Both the position numbers and the translations under genes were made by a program. This document shows, piece by piece, positions 17,090 through 61,932 of a stretch of DNA of 64,000 nucleotides. Source of the stretch: Pseudeuparius sepicola (lineage: Eukaryota > Arthropoda > Insecta > Coleoptera > Anthribidae); contig OY987306.1 in the NCBI GenBank assembly GCA_963920635.1, positions 14,154,001-14,218,000 on the forward strand, written 5' to 3'. Every line of letters begins with the position of its first letter. The stretch's first letter is position 1. The notes under the pieces are model-generated. The model was not told where the DNA came from. It was given only the letters and a program-made list of their open reading frames with translations, and searched no databases.

Positions 17090-18928
17090 AGTGGATGAGG
17101 CGTCCTAAAGGGAGAAAATAATAGACATTTATCTGGACCAAATGTTAATATGTTGGAAACACATACTTTTTGGAACAAGGGGTACCAATTTTGGCTTTTC
17201 CATTTTGGTACTACTAAGATTCCTTCAGCCTTATCTTTTATAATTTTATTTAATACTTTTGGGATTAAACAAAAAGGAGGGAATGCGTAGAATTTTATGT
17301 CTGCCCACGCTGTTGTGAATGCGTCTACTTTGTATGAGTTTGGGTCTCTATGCCAAGATATATATTTTTTGCATTTTGTGTTTGTTTTATTGGCAAAGAG
17401 ATCGATATCTGGGGGACCGAAGTAGGATACTATTATTTGAAATATTTCAGAATTAAGTGAAAATTCTTGAAAAATGTTTGTTATCCTTGACGCATGGTCA
17501 GCTACAGCGTTTTCTTTAGAACTAATATATGACGCGAATATCCAAATATTTCTAGTTTCGCACCAGTGCCAAATTTTTTCGCTTGCTTCATTCAAAGATT
17601 TAAAACGAATTCTCCCCATTTTATTAATATAGGAGATGGCTGTAGAATTATCAATTCTTAATAAGATATTGATATTTCTTTTCTCTTTTGCGAAGGATTT
17701 TAATCCGTTTTCGGCAGCCATAAGTTCTAAGCAATTTATGTTAAGTGTTTTTTCCTTGTTGTTCCAAAAACCATGTGTGGTTTCTTTCTTATTATATGCT
17801 CCCCATCCTGTTGGGGAGGCGTCTGAAAATATTTCTAAGTCATATTTATTTGCCTTAAATTCTTTTTTGAGACTTTTTATATTTTTAAGCCACCACGATA
17901 AAGTATTTTTTAGTTCGGTAGAGATAGACATATTTTGGTTGTAGTCTCCTTTATGATATTGTAACGCAAGAGTTTTCGCTCTTTCTAGATTTTTTGTATG
18001 TAGCCACCCGTATTTAGAAGCGGGGCACACGGATACAAGGGTGCCGATAAGTTTTGCAAAATCTCTTACTTTGCAAGTATTTTTCCTGAAATACTTTTGT
18101 AATAGATTGACTATTGTGTCCGTTTTTTCCTTGGGTAAGGTCATAGAAAGATCTTGTGTGTTGAAAATGAAACCTAGAAACTTAATCGACCTAGTGGGTA
18201 CGAGTGGGCTTTTACTTGCATTGAGTATGAACCCTAGTTTGTTTAACAGTTTAATGGAGGTGTATATGTTTTCTTGACAGTCTTTTTCCGTTTCCCCTAC
18301 TAGTAAAATATCGTCTAAATATATGACGGATAAATATCCTTGTGAGCGTAGTTTTTGTACAACTGGTTTCATAACTTTAGTGAATATATATGGGGCGGTA
18401 CTTAATCCAAAAGGTAGGCATTGAAATTCGTAAGTGTTTCCCGTATAAATAAATCTTAGATATTTTTATAAGAAAGTAAGCATCTTGAAGATCTATATTG
18501 GCCATATAATAGTCTTTAAATAGTAAATGTTGAGCAGACCTGTAGTCTTCCAGCTTGAAATGTGGTGGATCTAGGAATTTATTAACACTTTTTAAGTTCA
18601 GGATAAACCTGTATTTGCCATTTGGCTTTTTTCTTAGAAAAAATGGAGAAATAAATTCTCCATTTTTTGGTTTACACTTTTTAATTGCACCACAAGCTAG
18701 AAGGTGTTTAATTACTTCTTTATATTTGGGAAATTCCTTGTTGGGAATCTGTTTTTCAATGGGTTTTATTTTTTTAATTGGTGTTTTGTTAAACGGTATT
18801 TTGTAACCTTTGATTATATTTAGGATGTTTTTATCGGTTGTTATTTTCCGCCATTGTTTAGCATAAAGCTGCAGGCGACCCGCCATATTAGGACTTACCC
18901 CTAGTTCCTTGTTGGGTATTGCCTCCAA
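17038..18928 (-). pseudogene. DIRS reverse transcriptase-RNase H, one frameshift
   Basis: Two adjacent frames. The N-terminal piece (18928-18377) carries RT fingers/palm motifs (FFLRKKPNGKYRFILNLK, ANIDLQDAYFLI). The C-terminal piece (18372-17038, 444 residues) carries the catalytic YLDD at residues ~18-21, then RNase H with FSDASPTGWGAY, CLELMAAE, RIDNSTAI and AVADHASR. A C-terminal extension contains DIDLFANKTNTK. A frameshift near 18465 separates the pieces just after DAYFLI. The other catalytic motifs are present. The ATG at 18372 is internal and not a true start. It overlaps gag by ~28 nt and the recombinase by 52 nt. Confidence 0.8.
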
Positions 18929-20221
18929 TTGTTTCTCCTCTCTCCTCTCCCTCTCCCGCTCTGTGCGTAATTGCCTCTCATCGATGGGTTTGCTATTGGA
19001 GTTTTCATTCGTGCTTTGTAAGTAAGACGCTTGAAGTTTAAATCTTGCCTTTGGTTAATTTGAGTGTTATATGTACGGGATGTACTAGGTTTCTGTTGTC
19101 GTAATTCCCTGCTTGATTTCTCTAGCTCTTTGGCGTCCTTGCATCGCGTGGCTAGTTTTTCACCAAAAAGATATTTATCTATCGGTGCTTCTTCGACAAC
19201 TTGTTTTCGTTGAGCGTTTAAGGTAGGAGATATTATAAATCTCCTATGTTGGGACAGTTTATACTGAACGTTACACAATATTTTTGTGGTGTCTGCTAAA
19301 ATTTTTACTTCTCCTGGTGATGGGTTATTGTCGTTGGATAAATAGGAGTTCAAAGGAACTGACAAAACACAAACAGCAGTTGCTATCATGTTTTGAATTT
19401 TTGAAATGTACTCATCTGATCTATTAGCCGTTTTGGATAAAATGGTTTGGACCTCTTTGTTTAAAATTGGCGCGCCCAGAATATCACAGTTTTCAGGAAG
19501 TCGATATTCGGCGCAGGTGCGTTTTATTTCTTCCTTGTCTACTCCGTTGCATATAAAGTTTTCCCATCTTTTGACAAGCTCTTCGTGTAAGGGATTTCCT
19601 CTTTTTTCTTGTGTTTTTGGATCATCTCCTAATAATTCTATTACCGAAGAACTACTGCAGGGTTCTGGGTGTTCGTTGGAAGGAGTTGGACTCCTTGAGC
19701 TTGGAAAGCATTATTATTAGAGAAACGTGTTGGGGATGGCGTCGAGCCACGGCTTGAATTAGTAGACCACCTGCCCTGCTCCTCACCGCTGTCTGCATAA
19801 TCTAAAAGTGTTTACTTTTATGTTTTTCGGGAGTATGATATTTTCGAAATTAGGGAGAGGTTAAAATAGTAAGTGCGGCATCAACCACCTTGCTATACTT
19901 TGATACAGAGATTTTACAACATTTTACATGAACAACAAAAAGTATGTTCTATTGGCCTGGCATAAAGCCAGTATTTGTTATTATATATTTAAGCATGCTG
20001 CATGGAGCCGCATCTTATTATTATTATGGTTTAAATATTTCCATTGGTTTTTATATAATTAAATGTAACCGGCATACAACCGAGACATTTTAGTTCAAAG
20101 TAATGTTGCATAAAACAACATTACTTTACTTACTTTGAGTTTTGGAAACGTCGAGCATTCTTTCTAGCCTCCGAATCTTTGATTTTAGTTCTTTGTACTT
20201 TCTGCTGCGTTTTTTCCCCAT
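18901..20221 (-). pseudogene. gag: DIRS gag-like gene, probably spliced, one frameshift
   Basis: The best-supported part, 19389-18901, has FLFGEKL followed by a Lys/Arg-rich helical stretch and an R/G-rich tail (SGRGRGERRNN) typical of DIRS Gag. The same frame extends upstream, stop-free, to ~19710 without an ATG. A shifted frame (ADSGEEQGRW) continues to 19801. An upstream short exon starts MGKKRSRKYKELK at 20221 and ends at a consensus donor GTAAGT (from 20133). An acceptor CTTTTAG ends at 19802. Reading phase matches across this 332-nt candidate intron. One frameshift lies at ~19650-19700. The intron is predicted from sequence only. Confidence 0.65.
19802..20133 (-). other. Predicted intron in DIRS gag
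   Basis: Minus-strand donor GTAAGTAAAG begins at 20133 and acceptor ...CTTTTAG ends at 19802. The upstream exon ends in phase 1 and the downstream exon begins with two bases that restore the ADSGEEQGRW frame. Without splicing the small basic N-terminal exon ends after a few more codons. Confidence 0.5.
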
Positions 20222-39749: not shown

Positions 39750-41713
39750 TTATTTTTTAATTTCACACCAACATTTTCTTCTAAAGCAAACTTTGGAAAG
39801 AGGGTACAAAAATTGACTTCGAGAGAGGAAATTATCAGGAGGTGAAAATAAATGTCCAAAGGTTTCGTTACCACTTGATTTGTATGCTTTAAAATAAGTA
39901 AACAAATCAGTATCCCCTAATGTATGACGTTTACAATATTTAATACAAACTTCACATGAATGTTGTTCCAAGCACTTTCTTAATAAATATCCACAAACAT
40001 ATGATATACTATTTGATTCATGTAGTTCGAAATCAATATAATCTGGTGCCACCGAACTTAAATCAGAAAAAATAGATCTTGCATTTCCCACAACAACTTT
40101 GTTGTAAATTTGTGTATGTTCGGTGGTTACGTATGACAATAATGAATCAAAATCCTCAACACAATTAGCCCCATCCGCGTGTTGGAAATAATTTAAACAA
40201 AATGATTTTTTGAAAGCCCTTTCGCATTGGATGGGGGTTGTATTCAAGCAATTTCCCCCTTGCTGCCTAATAGTGCCGAAAAAATTTTCGAGACAATCTT
40301 GATTTAAGCGTCGAGTGTATAAGGAACTAAACTCTAAACAATGAAATTTTTCCCAAAGACCTAAAAATGAATTTATTGTGATTTGCCACCCTTTCAAAAA
40401 TTTAACTTTATTGGTAACCTCTATATTTTGTTTTAAAATTTTAATATTCTCAAAATATGTAAACATTTCCTTTAAAAAATCGACTTGGTAATTTGCTCCT
40501 TTGAAAGGTCTATTGTACTTGTATTACTGCCTGATATTTTTGAGGAATTTAAGATATCAAATAACTTATCAATTTTTTCTACAAATGACACTGTAGCGTT
40601 TGCCGAAGGGGGGAATTGTCCGAATTCAATAAAGGAATTAAGTGCCGCAGCTACCATTGCGCTGAAAACTTGGACGGCTAAACTAACCTTCAGTTTTTTA
40701 AAAGGATTCGAATTAATGTGTTCATCTGTAAATTTTGGACACAGCCGAAGAGCCAAAGGCTTATGTTTTTGTTTATTATAAATTTGGTCAATACCTATAC
40801 GTTTTATTTGTACATCCTTCAGAGGTTTCGAATGTGTAATTGAAAAAATTATTTCGTGTTGATTTTAAGAGATGCGGCACATCAAAAATATAAAATATTT
40901 TTTCGCTATCGACATAAAAATGTGAAGAGTTTGGAGAGATACCAACTGATTTTGAAAATTGTACAAAATTTGATCCTTGATCAGACACTAACGCACTTAC
41001 TAGTAATCCTACAGATTTAAGTTTCCTTATTGCTTCAAAAATAATAAATTTTAATTCCTCCCCTGAACAAGTATCAATAAAGAAATAAGCAACTGGTTGC
41101 TTCCACTTAGCAAATATTGCTCTAGCCATAATAGCTAAAACATATTTAGCAGGAGCATATATTTTTTCCTTCAATGTATTATGAAAGCCAACAATGGTAT
41201 CGGAAGATCTATTGTAAAATAAAAACATTTTTAATGACATTTCGTCAATACAAAGAATGCACTGTTTTGAAGAACCCTCTAAATTTGTAGCTTTTGATTT
41301 AATAACCTAAAAAATGAAACTGTTAAGACCTGCAGCTATATGCCATTTGCTAGTTATTCTTTGAAGAGTGCTTTTAGATGGCAAATAAAGTGGTTTCATT
41401 AAAAATCTATAAGCATTTGGGCTTAGAAAATAAATTGTTAAGGAAAATTGTTTCATATCTGAAGAGTAACGATATCCCTGTGGATCTTTTTTGGGATTTT
41501 CTAAATAATGCCTTACAAATAGTAGCATTGAAGCAGACAGTTTTTTCTCACAAATGGCAAGAAATTGTTCGTCATTTATTTCAGTGTCGGCACTGTCGAC
41601 AGCTTGCTCCAACTTCGGATGCAACTTTCTTTGGAGTTTTATTATTTGTAACTTTAATGAATGCTCTCTCGGACTATGTGCACTCAAACTAAGAGAAGTT
41701 TGTTGACTAGCAT
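39750..41713 (-). pseudogene. P-element transposase, main exon (exon 4), broken
   Basis: It starts after the acceptor CTATTTTTAG; first codons read DASQQTSLSLSAHSPR once exon 3 supplies one base. Recognisable P/THAP9 blocks are SKSTLQRITSKW, CILCIDEMSLKMFL (first catalytic Asp), IVGFHN, ALVSDQGSNF, FYIFDVPHLLKSTRNN (GTP-binding/insertion region follows), and LNQDCLENFFGTIRQQGG near the third acidic residue. Lesions are a TAG near 41308, a frameshift near 40800-40790 and another near 40470-40520. The stop is at 39750. The protein family and length are right, but the gene cannot encode one polypeptide. Confidence 0.8.
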
Positions 41714-41766
41714 CTAAAAATAGAATTATTCAATAACAAAATAAGTAATACAAAAATTACAATATA

Positions 41767-43705
41767 CAGTGTGACCCATTTGTTTTGGGGTCAGTCTGTA
41801 AAAAGTGTATCAATCGTGCGATTTGGCTGATTTTTTTTTTAAATTGTAGAGCTCGATGAACTGCACATTTTGAACAAAAATTGCCTGGTTCGCATAAAAT
41901 CCAAAGCCTACTATGATCGTTTTTATGAGCAAAATTTTAAGAAACCATATTAGCGTTTTTTTTTTGAAAAAATCTGTGTGCGCCAATGGATTGAGCACCC
42001 CTCGAAATGGGTATGTACAAAATTTCATCAAAATATTTCAAGTAATAACGATTTTATAGAAAAATTAAAAATGCAGCCAAGGTACGTCTTTATTTTCAAA
42101 AATTCAAAGTTGGCCATGGAAAATAATTGAATTGTAATAATACAACCTTATGCTTATAAACACAAAACATAAAAACAATTAAAATTATAAAATTTTTGTA
42201 ACTTCTACCAAGCCTCCATTTTCTACAATGCATTTGTCGTTCCTCTTGCGTACATTCAAAATTACATTTCGTATTTGCTGTGGAGTAATTTCCTCACAAC
42301 TACGGTTTATCCTAGCTTGCAGTTCTTGTAAATTATGGGGTCTTGACTTATAAACATTTTGCTTAAGTGTACCCCAAAGAAAAAAATCTAAAGGAGTTAA
42401 GTCCGGAGATCTCGGTGGCCACTCACAGAAAGGACTATTTCGCCCTATCCAACAGTTTTCAAAATTATTATCTAGCCAGTTTCTGATTAAACGAGCATTA
42501 TGAATAGGACTGCCATCTAACTGTAACTTTAAATTTAAACGGTATCTTAATGGTAACTCATCTAAAGCATTTCTAAATTCAATTTCTAGAAAATTCAAGA
42601 AGCCAGCCGCATTCAAATTCCCTTCAAAGAAAAATGGGCCAATTATTCTGTCGCGTAGTATTCCACACCAAACGTTAATTTTTTGTGAATATTGTCTCCT
42701 TGCATTTATTATAAACTCTGGATTTTCAGCTGACCAGTGACGGCAGTTTTGACTTGATACTACACCATTTGTAGTAAACGTGGCTTCGTCGGTGAATAAA
42801 ATTTCATTTAAAAAGTTGCCATTATGGAGATATTCACCTTGCAGCCAATAGCAAAATTCTAATCTTCTCTCCTCATCTCCTGGTTCCAGGGTGTGCAAAA
42901 ATTTTGGCTTAAACGGTTTTATTTTGTTTTGTCTCAAACATCTCCTTATACTCTCTCTGGGTATATGAAGGTCTAAACTAGCCGTTCGAACACTATTTCG
43001 AGGATTGTCACTAAAGTATTGCAGAATTTGATTGTTATTTTCAACAAGTCCACGGCGTCCATTTTGCCTAGTTTTTAATAAATTTTTAGAAATCGATCCA
43101 GTTTCATCAAAAATATTGTTTATACGTTGTACAGTACTTCGACTCACTGATCTACCTGGGTGTCTATTGTTAAATTCGGCCGCAGCTTCTGCTGCCGAGC
43201 GCTCGTTGTCGCCCACGAGTCGAACAATTTCTATTTTGTCTCTTATGCTTAAATATTCCATAATTATGATAATTAATTGTATTGAGCACAAACAATTTCT
43301 GAACTCAATTTAGACAGTTTGACACTTAATAAAAGTAAACAATTCAATTATTTTCCATGGCCAACTTTGAATTTTTGAAAATAAAGACGTACCTTGGCTG
43401 CATTTTTAATTTTTCTACAAAATCGTTATTACTTGAAATATTTTGATGATATTTTGTACATACCCATTTCGAGGGGTGCTCAATCCATTGGCGCACACAG
43501 ATTTTTTCAAAAAAAAACGCTAATATGGTTTCTTAAAATTTTGCTCATAAAAACGGTCATAGTAGGCTTTGGATTTTATGCGAACCAGGCAATTTTTGTT
43601 CAAAATGTGCAGTTCATCGAGCTCTACAATTTAAAAAAAAATCAGCCAAATCGCACGATTGATACATTTTTTACAGACTGACCCCAAAAGAAATGGGTCA
43701 CACTG
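41767..43705. mobile_element. Complete mariner/Tc1-like element with ~370-bp TIRs
   Basis: 1939 bp flanked by TA. Terminal inverted repeats 41767-42135 and 43340-43705 start CAGTGTGACCCATTT and are nearly identical, with only a handful of differences. They enclose one intact transposase frame. It lies in intron 3 of the P-element transposase gene, so it inserted after the P element. High TIR identity and an open transposase suggest recent insertion. Confidence 0.9.
42185..43291 (-). CDS. Mariner/Tc1-like transposase, intact
   Basis: The frame has 368 residues; the second Met (43261, MEYLSIRDKIEIVRLV) is the likelier start, giving ~358. An N-terminal helix-turn-helix pair (VSRSTVQRI, IPRESIRRCL) binds the TIRs. 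The catalytic acids are Asp in LFTDEATF, Asp in LQLDGSPIHNA and a third Asp in SPDLTPLDFFLWG. By hand count 42 residues separate the second and third Asp, i.e. DD42D, close to the DD41D groups rather than DD34D/DD34E. No stops or frameshifts. It would be the cut-and-paste enzyme for its own TIRs and is plausibly active. Confidence 0.9.
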   Translation of the reverse strand: MCSIQLIIIIMEYLSIRDKIEIVRLVGDNERSAAEAAAEFNNRHPGRSVSRSTVQRINNIFDETGSISKNLLKTRQNGRRGLVENNNQILQYFSDNPRNSVRTASLDLHIPRESIRRCLRQNKIKPFKPKFLHTLEPGDEERRLEFCYWLQGEYLHNGNFLNEILFTDEATFTTNGVVSSQNCRHWSAENPEFIINARRQYSQKINVWCGILRDRIIGPFFFEGNLNAAGFLNFLEIEFRNALDELPLRYRLNLKLQLDGSPIHNARLIRNWLDNNFENCWIGRNSPFCEWPPRSPDLTPLDFFLWGTLKQNVYKSRPHNLQELQARINRSCEEITPQQIRNVILNVRKRNDKCIVENGGLVEVTKIL

Positions 43706-47068: not shown

Positions 47069-47110
47069 TGTCGACGTTTCGACGATATTTATTTCGTCAT
47101 CTTCAGGACA
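47069..47110 (-). ncRNA. Hammerhead-like ribozyme motif (Penelope-type)
   Basis: Minus strand: stem I TGTC pairs with GACA (4 bp); core CTGAAGA; one extra T; stem II GACGA/TCGTC (5 bp, 8-nt loop); GAAA; two-base-pair stem III (AC/GT); cleavage-site C. Penelope-like elements are known to carry hammerheads with very short stem III. The unpaired extra base after CTGAAGA is unusual. Confidence 0.55.
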
Positions 47111-47169: not shown

Positions 47170-47985
47170 ATAGAATAATATTGGATTGGTATACTAAACC
47201 AAATTGGTATACTAAACCAAAAAACTAAAATAAATTTAGTGCTAAGTATGAAAAATAGAATCTCAAAATTATGTCACCCATCACTTATAAAAAAGAATTT
47301 AGTTAAATTAAAAAAACTTTTTATTGATAATTCTTATCCGGAAAAACTTTTAAACAAATTATTGTTTTCAACAAGAACATCTAATAATATATCAGATCAG
47401 CAACCTTTAGATCAACAACCTAGTACAATTTCGAGTAATAATATTAATTTAAATCTTAAAATATACAGATCTTTTCCTTATATTAAAGACCTAACACCAA
47501 AAATTTCAAATTTATTAAAAAAAGAAACCAATGTCATAATTGCTAATAAAACAATAAAAATTGTAGGAAATCTCTTTACGAATCTTAAGGACAAGGTAAA
47601 TACTCAAGATAGGGCTAATGTAGTTTATCACATTAATTGCACTAATTGTAATAAAACTTACATTGGTCAAACATGCAGAAGCATTAAATCTAGAAATATT
47701 TCGCATAAAAGTGATATTCGTCTAAGGCCCGAATCATGTGCTTTATCTCAACATGTTAATTCAACAGGACACAAAATGGATTTTGATAATACTAAAGTTT
47801 TGGCAACTGAAAGAAATTATTTTAAGCGTTCTTTTCTTGAAATGTGTTACATTAACCAAGTTGAAAATACTCTTAACAAAAAAACAGATATTCAGGACCT
47901 TAATATAATTTTTTCAAATTTACTTTTCTTAGAAAACAAACCAAATTTTACTAACAACAATAATAATTCAAATATACCTAGATAA
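47170..47985 (+). pseudogene. Penelope-like element: RT C-terminal end plus GIY-YIG endonuclease
   Basis: From ~47185 the RT-thumb phrase LDWYTKP appears (tandemly duplicated as WYTKPNWYTKP). A stop lies between it and the 248-residue open frame 47239-47985. That frame includes SFPYIKDLTPKISNLLKK (end of RT). The GIY-YIG-type nuclease follows: VVYHINCTNCNKTYIGQT, CRSIKSR, CALSQHVNSTGHKMDF (Cys/His linker) and the catalytic Glu in ATERNYFKRSFLEMCYI. The N-terminal RT (with YADD) is missing, so this is a 5'-truncated copy. The ATG at 47239 is internal to the ancestral ORF. Confidence 0.8.
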
Positions 47986-48213: not shown

Positions 48214-48253
48214 GTGACTGAAGAAGCAGTTAAACAACTGCGAAAGCTTTCAC
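48214..48253 (+). ncRNA. Hammerhead-like motif downstream of the Penelope-like ORF
   Basis: Stem I GTGA/TCAC (4 bp); core CTGAAGA; one extra A; stem II GCAGTT/AACTGC (6 bp, loop AAAC); GAAA; minimal stem III (AG/CT); then T. It has the same architecture, including the one-base excess, as the motif at 47069-47110. The N-U-H triplet would be CTT, a poor cleavage site. Confidence 0.45.
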
Positions 48254-48299
48254 CAATAAAAAGAGTCTTCACACTTAAAAATTGGCTTATTTCCCACTA

Positions 48300-49149: not shown

Positions 49150-49465
49150 CCGATAGTGCGCCACCTTTAAACCCCCTCAGGGTTGTGGTCCTATGTATTA
49201 TCTACTTTTAAAAAATTATTCGGTTCCGAAAAAAGTGGGGCCGATGGTGCGCCACTTTTAAACCCCCTCAGGGTTGTTGTCCTGTCTATTGTCTACTTTT
49301 AATAGTATATTACACACCGAGGTGTCTCGAGATAAAGTTAACCTCGGCGCTTCGCACCTCGGTTAACTATTTAATCTCTCGACAGTAATGAAACACTTCC
49401 CACCTCGGTGTGTAATATACTATTGGTCTAAAAAATTATTCGGTTCCGAAAATAGTTAGGGAAGA
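49150..49465. repeat. ~95-bp tandem duplication, second copy split by a MITE
   Basis: The unit with GTGCGCCAC, TTTAAACCCCCTCAGGGTTG and ATTATTCGGTTCCGAAAA occurs at ~49153-49247 and again from ~49248. The second copy is interrupted after CTACTTTTA by a 131-bp inverted-repeat element (49300-49431) and resumes at AAAAATTATTCGG. Confidence 0.6.
49300..49431. mobile_element. Short MITE with AATAGTATATTACACACCGA ends
   Basis: The ends AATAGTATATTACACACCGA and their complement are perfectly inverted for 24 bp (through GGTG). A further inner hairpin is TTAACCTCGG/CACCTCGGTTAA. The total is 132 bp, inserted in one copy of a tandem duplication, which proves mobility. Confidence 0.75.
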
Positions 49466-49529: not shown

Positions 49530-50296
49530 AAGTTAATTCCTTACCATTCCTCTTACTTTTCGTAAAAATTTGGTGGCGAAATGTCGCGTAATGTCCCCAA
49601 AAACCGAAAAACAGCGACTCCTCCTGGTGAATTTAAGCTTCTGCGTGCCCTTGACTACTGCCCGTAATTCCTCCGCCGAGATTCGCCAGGCGCGGGCATA
49701 TGACGTTGGCGTCGGGAGCTGGCGTCCGACGCCAACTTCACACAAAAACGACGCCGCGCCGAATCGCGCAATAATTACAATTACGAATGAATTCACTGGC
49801 ACTGATTCACTCGATTTTGCTCCATTTCCACGCCGCGCGGCCCGGCCGACCTACTAAATTACAGCTGGGCGAGGAGCGCAAGCGCGGGGCGCCGGATACC
49901 CACTTGAAATCGACACTACAGGTGATCCCCACTACTCATAACTTGTGCGCGATATTAGCCAATCGCGGCTCGCGGCCCCTACTTCTCTCGGGGCGGCGCT
50001 ACTATGTTGCCAAGTGTGCTGAAAATTTACCTGATTTAGTAATTTAATTCCGTATAAATTTAATTGTGTAGTGGATTTTTACATGGATTTACCCGTTTTT
50101 GTGCGTAATAATTATACGAGATAGTAGATTAACTTATAACGAATGAAACCCCGTATAAATCCGCGAAAATCAAAAATCGGATTTAAGGGACTTTAAGTCA
50201 GTTTGGGGACATGTCGGCATAAACGGCAACACCGAATAGTGGTATTGAATGGTATGGGGGAAAGCGTGTGCGCACGCACGCCGTCTCCGTCACCCA
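49530..50296. other. G+C/CpG-richer patch, no recognisable gene
   Basis: ~49560-49990 is clearly richer in CpG than its surroundings (e.g. GGCGTCGGGAGCTGGCGTCC). Open frames at 49570-49857 and 49787-50047 match nothing known. It could be a fragment of a host CpG-rich region or of a TE promoter. Confidence 0.3.
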
Positions 50297-50371
50297 TATA
50301 TATATATATATATATAAAGAAAAGGTGATAATGGGCAAACACTCAAAGTTAACAAAAAGAAAAAACTAGTA

Positions 50372-50416
50372 ACCGCATACACGTGTTTCATGCTATTTGG
50401 CAATCATCAGTACGGT
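50372..50416 (-). ncRNA. Hammerhead ribozyme-like motif, copy 1
   Basis: Minus strand: stem I ACCGTA/TGCGGT (6 bp, one G-U); canonical core CTGATGA; stem II TGC/GCA (3 bp plus a T-T opposition at the core, 6-nt loop); GAAA; stem III ACAC/GTGT without a loop; cleavage triplet GTA. A loopless stem III would work best as a dimer, as reported for short-stem-III hammerheads. Confidence 0.75.
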
Positions 50417-50697
50417 GTAACATTAACCAAATCAAAAGATAGGCATGATTTGGGAAGCAACAAATGAAGTCCAGGCAGGAGCCAACAGCACATTTGCAGC
50501 TTCAGTCAGCACATCCCCTATTTTGGGGCTTGTACTAACATCGCCACGGAGGCTGCTAAAGCGACCTGCGTGGAAATCTTCATAACCCAAGATACAATGA
50601 CAATAAGGATGTAAGATTAGCGAGTGTAAATGTAACAATTACAAGAAAAGGTGATAATGGGCAAACACTCAAAGTTAACAAAAAGAAAAAACTAGTA

Positions 50698-50742
50698 ACC
50701 GCATACACGTGTTTCATGCTATTTGGCAATCATCAGTACGGT
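50698..50742 (-). ncRNA. Hammerhead ribozyme-like motif, copy 2
   Basis: Identical 45 nt, exactly 326 bp from copy 1, same strand. Cleavage at both GTA sites would release a 326-nt RNA. Confidence 0.75.
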
Positions 50743-51023
50743 GTAACATTAACCAAATCAAAAGATAGGCATGATTTGGGAAGCAACAAATGAAGTCCAG
50801 GCAGGAGCCAACAGCACATTTGCAGCTTCAGTCAGCACATCCCCTATTTTGGGGCTTGTACTAACATCGCCACGGAGGCTGCTAAAGCGACCTGCGTGGA
50901 AATCTTCATAACCCAAGATACAATGACAATAAGGATGTAAGATTAGCGAGTGTAAATGTAACAATTACAAGAAAAGGTGATAATGGGCAAACACTCAAAG
51001 TTAACAAAAAGAAAAAACTAGTA

Positions 51024-51068
51024 ACCGCATACACGTGTTTCATGCTATTTGGCAATCATCAGTACGGT
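51024..51068 (-). ncRNA. Hammerhead ribozyme-like motif, copy 3
   Basis: Identical 45 nt, 326 bp from copy 2, in the partial third unit before the inversion. Confidence 0.75.
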
Positions 51069-51307
51069 GTAACATTAACCAAATCAAAAGATAGGCATGA
51101 TTTGGGAAGCAACAAATGAAGTCCAGGCAGGAGCCAACAGCACATTTGCAGCTTCAGTCAGCACATCCCCTATTTTGGGGCTTGTACTAACATCGCCCCA
51201 AAATAGGGGATGTGCTGACTGAAGCTGCAAATGTGCTGTTGGCTCCTGCCTGGACTTCATTTGTTGCTTCCCAAATCATGCCTATCTTTTGATTTGGTTA
51301 ATGTTAC

Positions 51308-51352
51308 ACCGTACTGATGATTGCCAAATAGCATGAAACACGTGTATGCGGT
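51308..51352 (+). ncRNA. Hammerhead ribozyme-like motif, copy 4
   Basis: Identical 45 nt on the plus strand, in the inverted half of the array. Confidence 0.75.
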
Positions 51353-51633
51353 TACTAGTTTTTTCTTTTTGTTAACTTTGAGTGTTTGCCCATTATCACC
51401 TTTTCTTGTAATTGTTACATTTACACTCGCTAATCTTACATCCTTATTGTCATTGTATCTTGGGTTATGAAGATTTCCACGCAGGTCGCTTTAGCAGCCT
51501 CCGTGGCGATGTTAGTACAAGCCCCAAAATAGGGGATGTGCTGACTGAAGCTGCAAATGTGCTGTTGGCTCCTGCCTGGACTTCATTTGTTGCTTCCCAA
51601 ATCATGCCTATCTTTTGATTTGGTTAATGTTAC

Positions 51634-51678
51634 ACCGTACTGATGATTGCCAAATAGCATGAAACACGTGTATGCGGT
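51634..51678 (+). ncRNA. Hammerhead ribozyme-like motif, copy 5
   Basis: Identical 45 nt on the plus strand, 326 bp from copy 4. Confidence 0.75.
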
Positions 51679-51770
51679 TACTAGTTTTTTCTTTTTGTTA
51701 ACTTTGAGTGTTTGCCCATTATCACCTTTTCTTGTAATTGTTACATTTACACTCGCTAATCTTACATCCT

Positions 51771-51773
<3 letters not shown>

Positions 51774-51867
<94 letters not shown>
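51774..51867. repeat. (TA)n microsatellite
   Basis: About 47 uninterrupted TA units directly abutting the last repeat unit. A shorter TA run lies at 50297-50316 on the other side of the array. The poly-(Ile-Tyr) frame over it is an artefact. Confidence 0.95.
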
Positions 51868-51868
<1 letters not shown>

Positions 51869-51953
51869 TAAGTAATAACTGTTAAATGTAAAAATAAAAG
51901 AAATCTGTTAATTTGGCGTAAATCCAACCAATTCCCTTTTCCATTGTCATTTC

Positions 51954-52575
51954 ATTTACTGACGCCACTACCATTGAACAGTAAAGGTTTTAGATCAGGA
52001 AACTTTATTTTAGTTGGAGTTTCTTTACAACATACAAATGGTATATTAATTGGCTAAAATTTATGTTTGATTTTAGGTCTGTTTAAATTTTTCTTATTTC
52101 CAATGTAGGCAATGCATTCAGATTTTAACGTTAAAATTGAAGTTTTGTCTAGCATTATAGTCAAAGGATTTTGATTTTTACACCTAATGGTTATAGGAAA
52201 TATTTCACTTAAAATTATTAACCATTGATTCTCTTCAATCCATTGTACATTATAACTTTCAATTGAAATTGTAACGATATTACAATTATTAGGTAAATGG
52301 GTTTTTACTTCTAATAACGGAGCTTCACATCTTGAGTGAGTCAATAAGAGTAGGACATAAATCTTTACACATTATTAAATGGAACGGTAGTTGTTCTCTA
52401 CAATTTTTTTATCATAAATAATTGCATAGAGAGCTTGGTCATCGCTTTTTGCTATATATTTAGTATAAGTAGATACCATTTAGTAAAATCCAGATTTATT
52501 ATCAAAACTTGGAATAGGATAAATTCTATAAAGAGTCAAAGAGCCTACCATTGAGGTTCTACTAAAGGAATGTCT
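51954..52575 (-). pseudogene. env: Env fragment of the second LTR retroelement
   Basis: Minus frames include LTLYRIYPIPSFDN, MVSTYTKYIAKSDDQ, VENNYRS, CEAPLLEV, YNVQWIEENQWLIIL, and ILTLKSECIAYIG with conserved Cys. This is the ectodomain of a gypsy-type envelope. It is interrupted upstream by the dispersed repeat at 52587 and downstream by the 4.9-kb insertion; stops are also present. Confidence 0.6.
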
Positions 52576-55755: not shown

Positions 55756-56298
55756 CTAGTGTTGGGAGTCGTCTGGTGGGTGAGCTTTGAGGTCCTTGGC
55801 ATGCCAGATGCCGAGGTTCCGCCCTGTAAGGTCTTTCAACTCGTATGTCCACGGTGACATTCTCCTGACAATTTCAAAAGGACCCACAAATTTTGGAGCA
55901 AGTTTCGATGTATAGTTTTTTGTAGCATCTGATAGCTGATAATTACGTTTCCATACTAGTTGTTTTACATGAAAATTTTCGTTTCTTCTCCGTAAATTAT
56001 AGGTATCTTTTGATTTTTGATGGGCTTTGAGAAGTTTTGCACGAACATCGGAAAAAACCTCCTTTAAAGCTTCAGATCTGAGATTGGGGTCGGCGGATGC
56101 CTCCATGTCATCAAAAGCCGCGATATCCGACTTTTTATCTCCCGAAAACTGTACTTCGCGCCCGAACATTATGAAATTGGGTGTCAAGTTCGTGACCTCA
56201 TGTTTGGCAGACCGTATAGCTGCGCCAACTTTTGCCAAATAAGTATCCCATTTTTTGTGTTCATCTTTCACGTAACTGGAGAGTATAGTTTTAAGCAC
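55756..56298 (-). pseudogene. pol: Integrase C-terminal part (separated by frameshift)
   Basis: 180 residues, including KWDTYLAKVGAAIRSAKHEV, TPNFIMFGREV and a C-terminal GPFEIVRRMSPWTYEL block (GPY/F-type module of Ty3/Gypsy integrases). It directly continues the long pol frame but in another phase. The cause is the 8-bp tandem duplication at 56326-56341. The ATG at the start is internal. Confidence 0.8.
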
Positions 56299-58958
56299 AC
56301 GGTGGACCCGCTCGACAGGGTAAGCTTGCGGATTTGCGGATGGTAATTAGCAGTATACCGAATGGTCACGTCATATTTTTGCATAAGATTCTGGAAAATT
56401 TTACTACGAAACTGAACACCATTATCCGCGATAATTTTCTCGGGCGCATCATAAATCAAAATCACATGGTCTTCGAGCCAACGAACGATTCCCTGGGCGG
56501 TCGCGGACCTAAGCGGAAAAAACAACACGTACTTAGTAAAACAATCGAATACGGACAGAACGTACGCATATCCCTGAGAAGATCGAGGAAGCGGACCAAC
56601 CAAATCTACGCTAATTATTTGCCAAGGACGAGAGGTAGAAGGTTGGAGGCTACGCATCTGACCAGCAGGCGGTTTTTGAAGAGGTTTCGTACTCAGACAA
56701 ATGTTACAACGCTTGATGTACTTTGCTACGTCGTTCCGCATATTAGGCCAGTAGTATTTTTGCGCAATTCGTGAAAAGGTCTTATAAACGCCTAGATGTC
56801 CGGCCGTTGGTGGATCATGATTTTCCCGGATAATCATAGAACGATTTTCTCGTGGTACTACTAAAACCCAAGAATCTGAAGGACCTACAAGCGCAGGATA
56901 GGGGACCTTTATGTTCTTGTATAGTTTCCCTTCTTCTATACGCCATTTCGGAAATTTGGCCGGATTATTGTCGACTTTGGTGATCATCTGCCGATACCAG
57001 TGGTCACGCGGCTCCAAATTCTCGACAGTTTTCTGACAGTCAATAGTGTCCACGACGGGCACGCTTCTAGATAACGCGTCTGGGACAACATTTTCGCGGC
57101 CTTTCCTATGCACGATATCGAAGTCGTATTGTTGCAGTCTAATAGCCCACCTGGCAATTCTACCGACCGGATCTTTTATGGAGTTAAGCCATTTGAGACT
57201 ATAATGATCTTTTAATACTGTAAATCGACTTCCCTCGATATAAGGTCTTAACTTCTCAATCGCGAACAATACTGCCAAACACTCTTTTTCAGTGGTACTA
57301 TATTTTCGCTCGCTCTTATTCAAAGACCGACTAAGATAGCAAATGACTCGTTCATCGCCATCCAGAAGCTGAGACAAAACGGCGCCCAAACCATAATCTG
57401 ACGCGTCACATTGAATCACAAAAGGTAGGTTGAAATCTGGGCACGATAAAACAGGAGGAGCGCTTACTAAATGATCTTTAATCGTCTGGAAGGCGGTCTC
57501 ACATTGCTCATCCCAACAGAATTTTATATTTTTTCGAGTAAGGGACGTTAACGGTGAAATGGTAGAAGAAAAATTTGGTACGAACCGACGGTACCACGAC
57601 GCGAGGCCAACAATACGACGTGCCTCTTTAACATTTCGTGGTGGGGGTATTTTTAAAATAGCATCGACTTTGTCGGGATCGACCAAAAGTCCGGAAGCAT
57701 TCACCACATAACCAAGGTATCTAAGTTCAGGCTTACAGAACACACACTTTTCTCGGTTGAGAGTGAGTCCAGCTTTGAAAATCCTGGACGTTACTTCGCG
57801 TAACACTTCGATATGCTTTTGAAAAGTTGGGGTACATATGATTACGTCATCAAGGTAGACAAACACGTAGGGTTCCAAATCCACGCCTACCACTCTATCA
57901 ATTAAACGCTGCCATACAGCTGGCGCGTTAGTAAGACCGAACGGCATTCTTTTAAATTGGAAAAGATCTCGGGTAGGGACTGTAAAAGCTGTCAAAGGTC
58001 TAGACTCTTCCTCAATAGGTATCTGCCAATAGGCTGACTTTATATCAAGCGTACTTAAGTATCGAGCGTCACGAAGTTTGTCAAGTGTGGCACTAACATA
58101 TGGAATCGGGTAGGCATCAGGGACGGTAACCTTATTAAGTGACATATAATCAACGCAAAACCTCCAACTTTTCAATTTTTTTCGGATCATGACCACCGGA
58201 CTAGACCAAGGCGACTTAGAGGGTTCTACAATCCCATTCGCCAGCATCTCCTCCAGCTCATTATTTACCTCCCTCTGGAGAGCAGGGGAGAGAGGATAAT
58301 AGCGTTGCTTAATCGGTGGAGAATCGGTTTTTATCACGAGCTCCACAAGAGAAGTACATCCTAATATTTTACCCATCGAAGAAAACATGTCAGAAGTCAC
58401 AGTTTCCAACTCAGCTCGTTGTTCCAGAGACAACGCATCAAGAGGTTGAATTGTAGCTACTTGAGGAAGATCTATAATATCGTCTTCGCGGAAAAACCAC
58501 TCGCAGGAATACAAATCTGGAATAATCCGCATGCGAAGCCAAAAATCTACTCCAAGAATTAGAGTGTGGGGAAGATCTGGGACGACCAAGACCTCAATAG
58601 CCACCACTCTGTCTCGTAGCTGAAATGGAATATTTACAGAACCAATTCCCTCGCACAGTCGTCCATCCGCAACCACGCAAGCCGACCTTATCCTATTATT
58701 AAGAGTACAACATGTCTTCATAACTTCCCATCCTCGTAAACCCAAAACCGTACGAGAACATCCGCTATCCAACAGACCCAGAAGACGCTTTCCAAGAATT
58801 TTAACTTCCAAATAGGGACGCTCGTCATTTTTAGCGTGGGCCAAAATGTAATCTAATAAAACAAGACTTCGGGTTCGGATAGTGGTCACAGAACTATGTG
58901 GAGCATGTTGGAGAGACGACTGACCTACCGTCTCTCCCTTAGTGAGTTTTTTGGACAA
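56268..58958 (-). CDS. pol: Pol polyprotein (PR-RT-RNase H-integrase), truncated by frameshift
   Basis: 896 residues. Protease with LLDSGCSRTVLG (active-site DSG) lies at ~residues 58-70. RT has SPWSSPVVMIRKK, LSTLDIKSAYWQIP, MPFGLTNAPAVWQ and catalytic FVYLDDVIIC. RNase H has QCDASDYGLGAVLSQ, TTEKECLAVLFAI and ALSRS. The integrase zinc domain has HLGVYKTF and CNICLS; the core has SVDLVGPLPRSSQG and IIADNGVQF. The final catalytic Glu region is lost because an 8-bp duplication shifts the frame at YHPQ. There is no ATG; translation is expected by -1 frameshifting from gag. Confidence 0.9.
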   Translation of the reverse strand: MSKKLTKGETVGQSSLQHAPHSSVTTIRTRSLVLLDYILAHAKNDERPYLEVKILGKRLLGLLDSGCSRTVLGLRGWEVMKTCCTLNNRIRSACVVADGRLCEGIGSVNIPFQLRDRVVAIEVLVVPDLPHTLILGVDFWLRMRIIPDLYSCEWFFREDDIIDLPQVATIQPLDALSLEQRAELETVTSDMFSSMGKILGCTSLVELVIKTDSPPIKQRYYPLSPALQREVNNELEEMLANGIVEPSKSPWSSPVVMIRKKLKSWRFCVDYMSLNKVTVPDAYPIPYVSATLDKLRDARYLSTLDIKSAYWQIPIEEESRPLTAFTVPTRDLFQFKRMPFGLTNAPAVWQRLIDRVVGVDLEPYVFVYLDDVIICTPTFQKHIEVLREVTSRIFKAGLTLNREKCVFCKPELRYLGYVVNASGLLVDPDKVDAILKIPPPRNVKEARRIVGLASWYRRFVPNFSSTISPLTSLTRKNIKFCWDEQCETAFQTIKDHLVSAPPVLSCPDFNLPFVIQCDASDYGLGAVLSQLLDGDERVICYLSRSLNKSERKYSTTEKECLAVLFAIEKLRPYIEGSRFTVLKDHYSLKWLNSIKDPVGRIARWAIRLQQYDFDIVHRKGRENVVPDALSRSVPVVDTIDCQKTVENLEPRDHWYRQMITKVDNNPAKFPKWRIEEGKLYKNIKVPYPALVGPSDSWVLVVPRENRSMIIRENHDPPTAGHLGVYKTFSRIAQKYYWPNMRNDVAKYIKRCNICLSTKPLQKPPAGQMRSLQPSTSRPWQIISVDLVGPLPRSSQGYAYVLSVFDCFTKYVLFFPLRSATAQGIVRWLEDHVILIYDAPEKIIADNGVQFRSKIFQNLMQKYDVTIRYTANYHPQIRKLTLSSGSTVCLKLYSPVT
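56326..56341 (-). other. 8-bp tandem duplication disrupting integrase
   Basis: TTGCGGAT occurs twice in tandem (56326-56333, 56334-56341). It shifts the reading frame within the conserved YHPQ-...-E motif. It is the only clear lesion in pol. Confidence 0.85.
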
Positions 58959-60871
58959 GACGAACAGGTGATCGATGTGACCCCATCACGTCCACACCGA
59001 AAGCAAAAACGACGCCTTGGTTTGTCACATTGACGAAACCGATGCCCAGCGGCTTCACAATTCCAACATACACTGGGTTCCGTTGATACAGCATCGACAC
59101 GAGGGCCTGTTGACTCTTTTTCCTTGATACGCGACTCCTCTATAGCGGAGATGTAGGACGAAGTAGGACGGTGATAGGCCAAAGATGGCTCCAAAAGTTG
59201 ACGATAGTTAATGGGAGGGGGAGCAAAACGTTGAATACGTGCCTCTGTCTCCTCCACCGCGCGACTCAGTCTAACAAGTTCAGATAAATTAGAAATTACA
59301 TTAGTTGATAGTCTACTCTGAATGGTGGGCAGTAAATTTCGTCGAACAATCTGTAACCGCGCGTTCTCCGCAGGAAGTTCCGGGAGTTTACGAAACAAAT
59401 TTTCCATGGCCGCGACGTAATTCACAACACGTTCTTGAGCCCCCTGAGTTCGTCTCCTAATTTCATCCCACAATCCAAATTCGTAATCGATAGGTTGAAA
59501 TGCACTCTTCAGTTGAAACACGAAATCATCCCAACTCGCAAAGGAACCCGTCCGAAACCACATCAAGGCATCTCTAGTTAAGAGTTCAGGTGCCGACCGC
59601 AAAAGCTGTTCTTTCGAAACCCCACGCGATATTCTAATTTCTTCGACACGGGCTAGGAAATCATTTACGCTAGACTGACCATCAAAAGTTAGATTCCATC
59701 GACCAACATCAATAGGTCTAAAATAGTCCGGCTGACAACAATTATTTCTGGAACCTCGAATGGGGGAGAACTGGAAATTATCTAACCTATCCGCAAGGTC
59801 CACGTATGGATCAGCGTGATGAAGGAGTTGATCCGTGGGGATAGTATAATCTCTGCGAGCAAGACGAGAATGGAAATCACGCAGTGATTGACTCTGATCA
59901 CTGACCGAAAAGCTAGAATATCCGTGTACACCCACACGATCAGAAAAGGTAACCTGCTGAGGCCCAGAAGAACAAATGGACGATTGGCGAATCGCCGAGA
60001 CTGCACCGCGAGGCTGATGACTGATGGGGGCCGCAGGGTAAGAGGGCTCTCTATCTCTACCGGAAGGTTGACGGTTATCCTCGCGAGACAAACATGACTC
60101 TGGAAGATTTTGCACACGGGGGTTCGATTGAGTGTCATTGTGATCCGGGGCATTGACATTATTTAGACGATAAGAAAAGAACCTGTCGCGACTTTGATCT
60201 GATTCAGGCTGAGGCAAAGCACCAAGACTAGACCCAGGCTCAGAATTAGAGGATACTGGAGGTGCAATGGGTCGACGTCGATCTACCGGGGGTTCTGCAT
60301 TTCCTGAAAGACCACCGTCTATTCGCGACGATGTCATTGGGGGATGCGCGACATTTTCATCCAAAGTTATTAGCTCATTGTCGCCAGGATCAACCTCTAC
60401 CGCCGCATCCGCACCGCGTTCACCCACCGAACCGTTAGGAAAAGTTACAGGAACTCCATCAACGCGATTGGACACGACTTGAAGTTCGCCCATAAGTTGA
60501 TAACAACGGGTTAACAGATCCTGCCTCAAAGAGATGTCAATTTCCGCTTGACAACAAATTCTTTGCAACCGCAAGTGGACATGTAAATGTCGGGTGTGAA
60601 TCCTTTTCTGTTCATTATCTCGATTGTTGTAATCAAACGCGGAAATATCCGAAGCCAAATTATTTAATTTCGCCCTACACAAACATAACTCTTCAACAGG
60701 ATTCATATTTACTTCAGATGGTACTTGTGCTTGACCTAACCGTTCCAGTCTAAAAGTATCCCTCAATAGTGCTCTTTTTTCTTGGACGGTACCCCTAGTT
60801 GGAAGGCCACGAATACCCAACTCGTAAGTTAATTCCCCTCCCAAAAGTCGATTAACCTCCATATTACTCAA
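58925..60871 (-). CDS. gag: Gag polyprotein, intact
   Basis: 648 residues from ATG 60871. Matrix/capsid-like, with a Ser/Pro/Arg-rich middle (~residues 150-330) and a capsid region around ~390-530 (WNLTFDGQSSVNDFLARVEE, LLTRDALMWF, ENLFRKLPELP), typical of Ty3/Gypsy Gag. C-terminal zinc knuckles: CWNCEAAGHRFRQC (CX2CX4HX4C) and CFRCGRDGVTSITC, in which the His position is Val, a variant seen in related insect Gags. It ends 34 nt after the pol frame opens. Confidence 0.85.
   Translation of the reverse strand: MSNMEVNRLLGGELTYELGIRGLPTRGTVQEKRALLRDTFRLERLGQAQVPSEVNMNPVEELCLCRAKLNNLASDISAFDYNNRDNEQKRIHTRHLHVHLRLQRICCQAEIDISLRQDLLTRCYQLMGELQVVSNRVDGVPVTFPNGSVGERGADAAVEVDPGDNELITLDENVAHPPMTSSRIDGGLSGNAEPPVDRRRPIAPPVSSNSEPGSSLGALPQPESDQSRDRFFSYRLNNVNAPDHNDTQSNPRVQNLPESCLSREDNRQPSGRDREPSYPAAPISHQPRGAVSAIRQSSICSSGPQQVTFSDRVGVHGYSSFSVSDQSQSLRDFHSRLARRDYTIPTDQLLHHADPYVDLADRLDNFQFSPIRGSRNNCCQPDYFRPIDVGRWNLTFDGQSSVNDFLARVEEIRISRGVSKEQLLRSAPELLTRDALMWFRTGSFASWDDFVFQLKSAFQPIDYEFGLWDEIRRRTQGAQERVVNYVAAMENLFRKLPELPAENARLQIVRRNLLPTIQSRLSTNVISNLSELVRLSRAVEETEARIQRFAPPPINYRQLLEPSLAYHRPTSSYISAIEESRIKEKESTGPRVDAVSTEPSVCWNCEAAGHRFRQCDKPRRRFCFRCGRDGVTSITCSSCPKNSLRERR
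58946..58952 (-). promoter_or_regulatory. -1 ribosomal frameshift slippery site A AAA AAC
   Basis: On the minus strand AAAAAAC lies in the gag-pol overlap. In gag phase it reads A-AAA-AAC, the classical X-XXY-YYZ heptamer. The pol frame is -1 relative to gag, so slippage here would fuse Gag to Pol. A downstream stimulatory structure was not analysed. Confidence 0.75.
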
Positions 60872-61932
60872 CCTAGCAACTCCAGCAAAAAATGCAGGTA
60901 TTTAAAAAAAGCAAATCAAAACTAATCAAAATTTTATTTCACTATATCTCTCGCCAAGAAATCAGCGCCAACCAATAACTGAATGGATGTAATTTAGTAG
61001 CAGGCAACTATTTAAAACCCTACCCTTGCTTAATAAAAAAACAACAAAAAAAGGCGAAGGCCACTCCCAACTGCCAGGGTATGATACTACTCCAGGAAAT
61101 AATATCTTTCCAAAAAAATATCCAAATCAATTTAAGACCTAATTTTACTAAGTTAACTTGTTCTGGTTTTATTATTTCTTTGCGGCTAATTTTCCTCCAA
61201 TTAAGAAAAACTATATTTACAACAAATATTAGAAACGGTTGCAAACTTACAATATTAATGTAAAACAATTGTAAGAAAATATTAACTCCGCAAAAGTAAA
61301 GTTTGACCACCCTGTAGATACCTAATTAAGCAGGCCTTTTTATTCCGATCAATATAAAATATCTCAATCTATAAGAGCCCAGTCGCTTTTTTGTATCCAA
61401 TTCAAATCGCAATCGCAAATGCACAAGCAAAAAAAACGACGTACCAGGCTAGAGACAAAAAAACAGGCCGCAGTTCCTCCAAACTTCTCGCGCAAAACAA
61501 CTTATTTGCAATAATCACAAATTCAGTTTACCCGATATTCAATCAATATCCAAGTAAACAAACTATAAACACGGACAAAATCAAAACCTACAGTTTAAAA
61601 TATTACCACTAAAAAAATGAACCTCAATGAAAATACTTGGGACCAAATTTGAAATTAGATTAAAATGCAATAAAAAATAATTGAACAGAATAAGACAATT
61701 ACGTAACTTTACAAAATTACAACGAATTAAAAAAAGTAACGTAAGCAAATTTGCAAATAATTTCAAAATAATGAAAATTCAGGCATTTACGTCTTCAATG
61801 AAAATCTCTCACCATTTCTTTTCAGGCAGTATTAGAACAAGGGTTCCATGTAATTAAAAAAAAATCAAAACTTTGAGAAATCTGTATGCAACTGCAACAA
61901 TACCCTAAATGAAACGTTGGGCGCCAAATTTC
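60872..61932 (-). other. Ty3/Gypsy 5' leader
   Basis: About 1.06 kb between the primer-binding site and gag. No recognisable protein. Likely holds the packaging signal. Confidence 0.6.
61910..61932 (-). promoter_or_regulatory. Primer-binding site
   Basis: Minus strand directly after the 5' LTR: GAAATTTGGCGCCCAACG. The TGGCGCCCAACG core is the common Ty3/Gypsy primer-binding type. Confidence 0.75.

Follow-up and report, generated by a model that had tools for sequence, protein, structure and literature searches.

A 326-nt hammerhead retrozyme insertion in a beetle genome, probably mobilised in trans by a Penelope-like element

The window, by which we mean the whole 64,000-nt stretch of DNA that was analysed, comprises positions 14154001-14218000 of contig C8 in the 769-Mb, 16-contig genome of the beetle Pseudeuparius sepicola. 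Between 50317 and 51774 it carries a head-to-head composite of 326-nt units, a minus-strand arm followed by a plus-strand arm, with (TA)n at both outer ends and, further to the right, an end piece of PLE1, one of the two families of Penelope-like elements (PLEs) of the same genome that were examined. The features of the array are as follows.

50296..50316, (TA)n target at the left outer end
50317..51197, minus (ribozyme strand), left arm, 2.7 unit copies, 3' end +61 nt past the ribozyme cut
50355..50426, minus, type-I hammerhead 1, predicted cut between 50378 and 50377, HH9 match of 27.1 bits
50681..50752, minus, type-I hammerhead 2, predicted cut between 50704 and 50703
51007..51078, minus, type-I hammerhead 3, predicted cut between 51030 and 51029
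51195..51197, head-to-head 5' junction, 3-nt overlap, 5' phases 159 and 175
51195..51774, plus (ribozyme strand), right arm, 1.8 unit copies, 3' end +102 past the cut
51298..51369, plus, type-I hammerhead 4, predicted cut between 51346 and 51347
51624..51695, plus, type-I hammerhead 5, predicted cut between 51672 and 51673
51774..51867, (TA)47 target at the right outer end
51884..51982, plus, PLE1 end piece right of (TA)47, tail included, extent of the tail judged by eye

Tandem Repeats Finder reported 50317-51197 with a period of 326, 2.7 copies and 100% matches, and a repeat search of the window found the inverted arms 50602-51181 and 51195-51774 to be complementary at 100%; both arms (881 nt on the left, 580 nt on the right) align to the 326-nt unit with zero mismatches, the right arm ending in a 'tail' about 40 nt longer than that of the left. 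The motif coordinates bear out the claim of the initial annotation that five identical type-I hammerhead motifs, three on the minus and two on the plus strand, lie in 326-bp units, and their exact 326-bp recurrence holds inside each arm but is broken where the arms meet head-to-head. Two Rfam matches at the array, MIR1888 and mir-942, were discarded as the perfect inverted repeat at the junction folding on itself. Within the PLE1 end piece, 62 nt at 51884-51945 are 97% identical to positions +4 to +65 past the PLE1 hammerhead cut.

The motif, CTGATGA-stem II-GAAACACGTGTA, occupies 50378-50410, 50704-50736 and 51030-51062 on the minus strand and begins at 51314 and 51640 on the plus strand. It is built from a 6-bp stem I, CUGAUGA, a 3-bp stem II preceded at its base by a U-U mismatch that the earlier description lacked, GAAA, a 2-bp stem III and the triplet GUA at which cleavage is expected. 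The 'loopless 4-bp stem III' of that description cannot close on itself; stem III consists either of 2 bp with a palindromic ACGU tetraloop or of the palindrome pairing between two motifs. The covariance-model check proposed alongside it gave a divided answer: the whole-window Rfam run returned no match at the gathering score, and a permissive run on 50000-52000 placed Hammerhead_HH9 (RF02275) at all five places with 27.1 bits (E 4.7e-4), under the gathering score of 52 yet aligned over the full length of the model (1-77), with the stem I internal loop (GUUAC/UAC) and loop II (CAAAxA) both fitting the consensus as read by eye. HH9 is not known from tandem repeats. A looser motif pattern gave 8 matches against 0.87 expected (largest shuffle 4), and a scan of the window for the core with three stems found these five only, with 0 in 830 simulated 128-kb strands; the excess over shuffles and the empty simulations lead us to reject a chance origin of the motifs. 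Folding predictions were less direct: the minimum-energy fold of an isolated 72-nt motif (-9.8 kcal/mol) is not the hammerhead, which scores -5.0 kcal/mol when its tertiary contacts are left out of the calculation, and the circular 326-nt unit folds at -80.3 kcal/mol, where 100 mononucleotide shuffles give -67.8 +- 4.4, again with a minimum-energy fold other than the hammerhead. By analogy with known retrozymes, RNA of the unit would be expected to cleave itself and to circularise.

The remainder of the window contains several other mobile elements, the first two and the last two listed here having been recognised by Pfam or by eye.

16070-19710, minus, second reverse transcriptase (RT) element
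39750-41729, minus, pieces with a TNP-like RNase H domain
47070..47106, minus, PLE1 minimal hammerhead, inverted, cut after 47073
47182..47985 (ORF 47179-47985), plus, 5'-truncated PLE2, C-terminal part of RT-GIY-YIG, GIY-YIG E 9.5e-4
48218..48254, plus, PLE2 minimal hammerhead, cut after 48249, copy ending at about +65, at TATATA
42185-43309, minus, DDE_3 transposase
56268-60901, minus, LTR pol with RT, RNase H and integrase

The PLE2 fragment is situated 2.3 kb from the array. Its GIY-YIG domain scores 19.9 bits (Pfam cut-off 22.6), its ORF has 17 database relatives, the named ones coming from Coccinella, Diabrotica and Mycetomoellerius, and a scan of the window for minimal hammerheads yielded two, each of them next to the ORF. 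A short MITE-like element with the inverted ends TATTACACACCGAGGTG ... CACCTCGGTGTGTAATATA was seen by eye at about 49306-49423. Beside the array, 50132-50198 matches the Type-P3 twister model at 23.2 bits (gathering score 39.9, E 0.098), which is probably a chance match.

A genome-wide search for the 33-nt motif, allowing at most 3 mismatches, gave 5,323 matches (2,591 + 2,732) against 0 for a reversed-pattern control, so that the motif in the window is one of thousands of copies and the further 326-bp arrays for which the initial annotation proposed a search do exist. The places examined were the first 100 listed, each of them an exact match and all situated in the initial 12.4 Mb of contig C1. 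Among the places listed, array spacing is mostly 326, with a few of 325, 322 and 314; one array at C1:3142666-3146286, with 13 listed motifs at a spacing of 299, is apparently a deletion variant that has itself been multiplied. Opposite-strand neighbours within 600 bp of each other, start to start, were head-to-head in 10 cases and tail-to-tail in 3 among the matches listed. Mapping of 36 regions around those 100 places, together with the window, yielded 73 unit segments and 68 free 3' ends, two long arrays of 13 being mapped by their ends only. A further 218 kb outside the window (18 kb adjacent and 200 kb across C1-C7) contained no retrozyme unit or PLE-kind hammerhead; three short stretches (22-31 nt) matching the end region of PLE2 were the only hits. 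The unit was not found in phage records, nor a variant of the motif in viral contigs.

The free 3' ends are concentrated in two zones, at about +61 and about +102 past the cut, which together account for 59 of the 68 ends in the window and the 36 regions. Thirty-one ends fall at +55-71 (15 of them at exactly 61) and 28 at +95-108 (18 at 101-102), the other nine lying at 3, 17, 21, 31, 174, 207, 217, 282 and 325. The binomial probability of this against a uniform distribution is 1e-50, a value computed with zones drawn after the first batch of regions and with loci taken as independent although some are duplicated (L055 and L056 are 98% alike, L052 and L053 94% alike). A second batch was fetched once the zones had been seen: 31/36 ends lay within them in the first batch and 28/32 in the later one, or 24/28 when L053 and L056 are omitted. 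Within 20 nt past the 3' end, (TA)3 or longer was present at 49/68 ends.

The two kinds of end are distributed between arms in a regular manner. Sixteen of the 26 head-to-head pairs have one arm of each kind, one pair is +61/+61 and one +102/+102, and in the other eight one arm ends outside both zones; L033 and the second pair at L050 become one-of-each once broken fragments are merged. Counting L055 and L056 once, 15 of 17 fully classified pairs are mixed (P 0.001 against an independent equal-odds choice). At their 5' junctions the phases are scattered, and the 16 mixed pairs divide into 10 with an overlap of 1-8 nt and 6 with inserts of 2-24 nt. Snap-back self-priming of one cDNA was considered as the sole source of the head-to-head layout and rejected, as it fits the window phases of 159/175 but not loci with more distant 5' phases, for instance 301/179, 70/291 and 27/90; we prefer twin priming followed by end joining. 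Five 5' ends (L025, L040, L054 and the duplicates L055 and L056) coincide exactly with phase 6, where the 3' strand of stem I has its outer base, and may represent a stop of reverse transcriptase at the folded hammerhead.

At ten head-to-head loci the flanks do not consist of (TA)n alone, and at five of these (L023, L032, L033, L039 and L049) a target duplication of about 7-12 bp, judged by eye and possibly containing a few element letters, surrounds the whole composite, so that at these five loci both arms entered together. No duplication of at least 7 nt was present at L025, L027, L031, L043 and L048. At the remaining loci, among them that of the window, (TA)n itself forms the direct repeat and is uninformative on duplication. 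The arms of 1,665 and 990 nt at L042 run through the unit several times, and such multi-lap arms need a circular or multimeric template.

It is this head-to-head layout with two preferred 3' end points, unnoticed in the initial annotation, that points to the mobilising machinery, and two PLE families of the same genome were compared at their ends. The PLE1 motif has 74 copies in the genome (control 0), and 46 of the 74 were analysed together with the window's own copy, 47 in all. These copies either stop at about +62-65 past the cut or continue through a tail to about +96, the tail being present in 20/47 by score (that of L081 is broken); chance matches extend several of the short copies to +67-73 or beyond, and L097 is interrupted early. 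Of six PLE1 pairs lying head-to-head at close range, five had the tail on one arm and one on neither arm; no pair had it on both. The PLE2 motif has 294 copies (control 0). The 20 end regions of ten pairs were analysed, three of which read through into the element; all 17 defined ends lie at +62-69 (8) or +98-108 (9), and each of the eight pairs with both ends defined combines a short and a long arm. Thus two adjacent end points past the hammerhead occur in all three elements: +61/+102 in the retrozyme, +62-69/+98-108 in PLE2 and about +65/+96 in PLE1. The PLE2 protein fragment has at least 147 matches in the genome; 11 of 147 lie in an open frame of 841 codons, so that PLE2 copies with an uninterrupted frame exist. 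At three places compared by hand (the window, C3:36979956/36980192 and C3:36991524/36991760), the PLE2 protein match ends 236 nt before the hammerhead. Among the first 100 places listed for the PLE2 motif, C3:36977768-36995832 holds a minus copy lying head-to-head with five tandem copies spaced exactly 2,892 nt apart, a retrozyme-like layout, as if PLE2 RNA had been copied from a circle or multimer.

The choice of target distinguishes the two families. (TA)n flanks 49/68 retrozyme ends but 2/47 PLE1 ends (Fisher P 3e-14), and 13/17 PLE2 ends in a slightly wider test than that used for the retrozyme; as (TA)n separates PLE2 from PLE1, PLE2 or a relative is the better candidate mobiliser. When the 104 nt past the cut were compared, the retrozyme-PLE2 local score was reached by 277-407 of 3000 shuffles and the global score by 743-1044, against 5-20 (local) and 91-168 (global) of 3000 for retrozyme and PLE1; the local score of PLE1 against PLE2 was reached by 5-10 of 3000. 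The best register on the unit lay 3-10 nt from the cut for PLE1 and at 170, not at the cut, for PLE2, and an antisense control for retrozyme and PLE1 gave 28 vs 30. These alignments suggest a modest, weak similarity of the retrozyme to PLE1 and one to PLE2 that is not significant. A second matching block in the retrozyme/PLE alignment proved spurious, the window's PLE1 copy being tail-less and its sequence past +65 flank. If PLE2 recognises retrozyme RNA, it would do so by structure or by a few bases.

We consider it likely that the array is an insertion of a 326-nt metazoan non-LTR retrozyme mobilised in trans by a PLE, and hold this slightly less confidently because half of the testable loci have no target duplication. 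According to our working model, the type-I hammerhead would cleave array transcripts, probably most efficiently when motifs pair with one another in multimers, given a stem III of only 2 bp with a palindromic tetraloop, and the monomers would be ligated to circles, as published retrozymes suggest. A Penelope-like RT-GIY-YIG protein, most likely that of PLE2 or a close relative, would bind the RNA downstream of the hammerhead and cut both strands of a (TA)n target. Reverse transcription would then start inside the RNA, at +61 on one strand and at +102 on the other; the end points are those observed, the enzyme is our inference. Each cDNA would make a variable number of laps around the circle or along the multimer, and the two free ends would be joined head-to-head through a few nucleotides of microhomology or short inserts, so that both arms form one insertion. 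It is also conceivable, though we stop short of calling it probable, that a PLE dimer starts on circular retrozyme RNA at two fixed internal points simultaneously, one subunit per strand, that this concerted start is the general cause of the one-sided PLE tail, and that PLE2, with its 2,892-nt tandems, also passes through a hammerhead-made RNA circle. If this were true, a single rolling-circle pathway with insertion on both strands would be common to retrozymes and PLEs.

The main competitor, which we regard as unlikely, is that the unit is a miniature, internally deleted PLE in which the protein has gone but the hammerhead and the RT-start region survive, and not an independent retrozyme lineage. 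The layout and the hammerhead-to-end distances do resemble those of PLE1 and PLE2, there is modest post-cut similarity to PLE1, and an origin of retrozymes from PLEs by reduction has already been proposed (PMC11722881). However, the retrozyme hammerhead aligns to HH9 over its full length, whereas those of PLE1 and PLE2 are minimal as judged by a scan of their stems, with a stem I of 4 bp and a palindromic 2-bp stem III without a loop; moreover, similarity to PLE2 is not significant and the array contains no ORF of 120 codons or more.

Considerably less probable is mobilisation of the unit by a LINE through target-primed reverse transcription with twin priming (5' inversion). Twin priming yields head-to-head arms with microhomology junctions, and the layout and junctions described above are what it would be expected to leave; LINEs have also been named as candidates beside PLEs (PMC7229834). 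Against this, two internal starts about 40 nt apart, one per arm, have been described for PLEs and are present in both PLE families examined here. An ordinary satellite that spread through recombination and carries the hammerhead as a passenger would account for head-to-tail tandem units of near-constant length, but is very improbable in view of short dispersed arrays, (TA)n flanks, five composites with duplications and, above all, preferred ends, which already contradict it. An assembly artefact, in which a fold-back (palindromic) read made the inverted arms, is suggested by their 100% complementarity over 580 nt and can be dismissed, because the flanks are not palindromic beyond (TA)n, the two arms are unequal in length and stop at different points, and 26 pairs with different junctions have the same layout.

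That PLEs mobilise retrozymes has already been published as an untested suggestion, and it is the end layout of the copies that is new. Cervera & de la Pena (2020) named LINEs or PLEs as candidates for the mobilising enzyme, PLEs being considered a strong one by virtue of a shared ribozyme type, tandem copies and co-existence (PMC7229834), and a 2024 review repeats the PLE/LINE view (PMC11722881). In the open-access literature on retrozymes and PLEs, represented in part by excerpts and with subscription papers and preprints outside its scope, we found no report of such a retrozyme end footprint; the main text of PMC7229834, as accessible, does not use the words 'inverted', 'twin' or 'microsatellite'. 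The present insertions have a footprint specific enough to indicate PLEs, and occur in a genome with thousands of motif copies and with open-frame PLE copies, so that the suggestion becomes directly testable; the one-site-per-arm rule in addition offers a concrete model for the PLE tail.

Comparison with known systems supports the view of the initial annotation that this is a metazoan retrozyme. Metazoan non-LTR retrozymes are low-GC tandem units of 170-400 bp with a type-I hammerhead (PMC7229834). The unit of 326 bp lies within the class range of about 170-400 bp in dimers to multimers, has a GC content of 40.8% (class limit 45%), carries a type-I hammerhead with helix I-II tertiary-loop motifs at a score below gathering, is overlapped in the array by no stop-to-stop frame of 120 codons or more and, where target duplications are present, shows about 7-12 bp at five loci (class value >4 bp). 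It differs from the class in that its arrays are often head-to-head composites whose 3' ends favour two points and lie in (TA)n. By description, its hammerhead resembles HHR_Amex2 of axolotl Rtz_353, which likewise begins helix II with a U-U mismatch and caps a helix III of 2 bp with a tetraloop, and which cleaves much better as a dimer; published retrozymes are also abundant as circles (PMC7229834). Likewise by description, the Dolichopoda cave-cricket satellite pDo500 is an insect satellite repeat with a hammerhead (PMC2837043).

The likeness to published PLEs concerns the ends, and here the retrozyme, by analogy, fits the published pattern in the number of sites, their distance, asymmetry, target and duplication. 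Shared features are an inverted terminal copy placed head-to-head, a 30-40-nt tail carried by one of the arms, targets that are rich in AT and duplicated over a short length, and RT starts downstream of the hammerhead. In contrast to PLEs, the retrozyme has no protein, an RT-GIY-YIG open reading frame (the feature of autonomous PLEs) being absent from the unit, and its hammerhead is HH9-like instead of minimal; PLE2 is about nine times longer (2,892 vs 326 nt). In Adineta Penelope an inverted pLTR adjoins, an optional tail is found on one inverted pLTR, and duplications are of 8, 9 or 10 bp or none (PMC3846280). For the Anolis Poseidon element PAc, the published work places the hammerhead cut 26 nt into the ORF and the internal RT start at 111-118, i.e. 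by arithmetic 85-92 nt past the cut, and describes a tail of 30-40 bp corresponding to the sequence between two start sites, a protein with a preference for AT-rich DNA that cuts both strands and extends them, and hammerhead mutants with unaffected insertion, the main template being unprocessed RNA (PMC11167929). Between the two strands, no difference in RT start was seen in PAc (PMC11167929), whereas in the retrozyme one site goes with each arm. The one-site-per-arm rule does not follow from the portions of the PLE literature examined, and in this respect the retrozyme departs from PAc.
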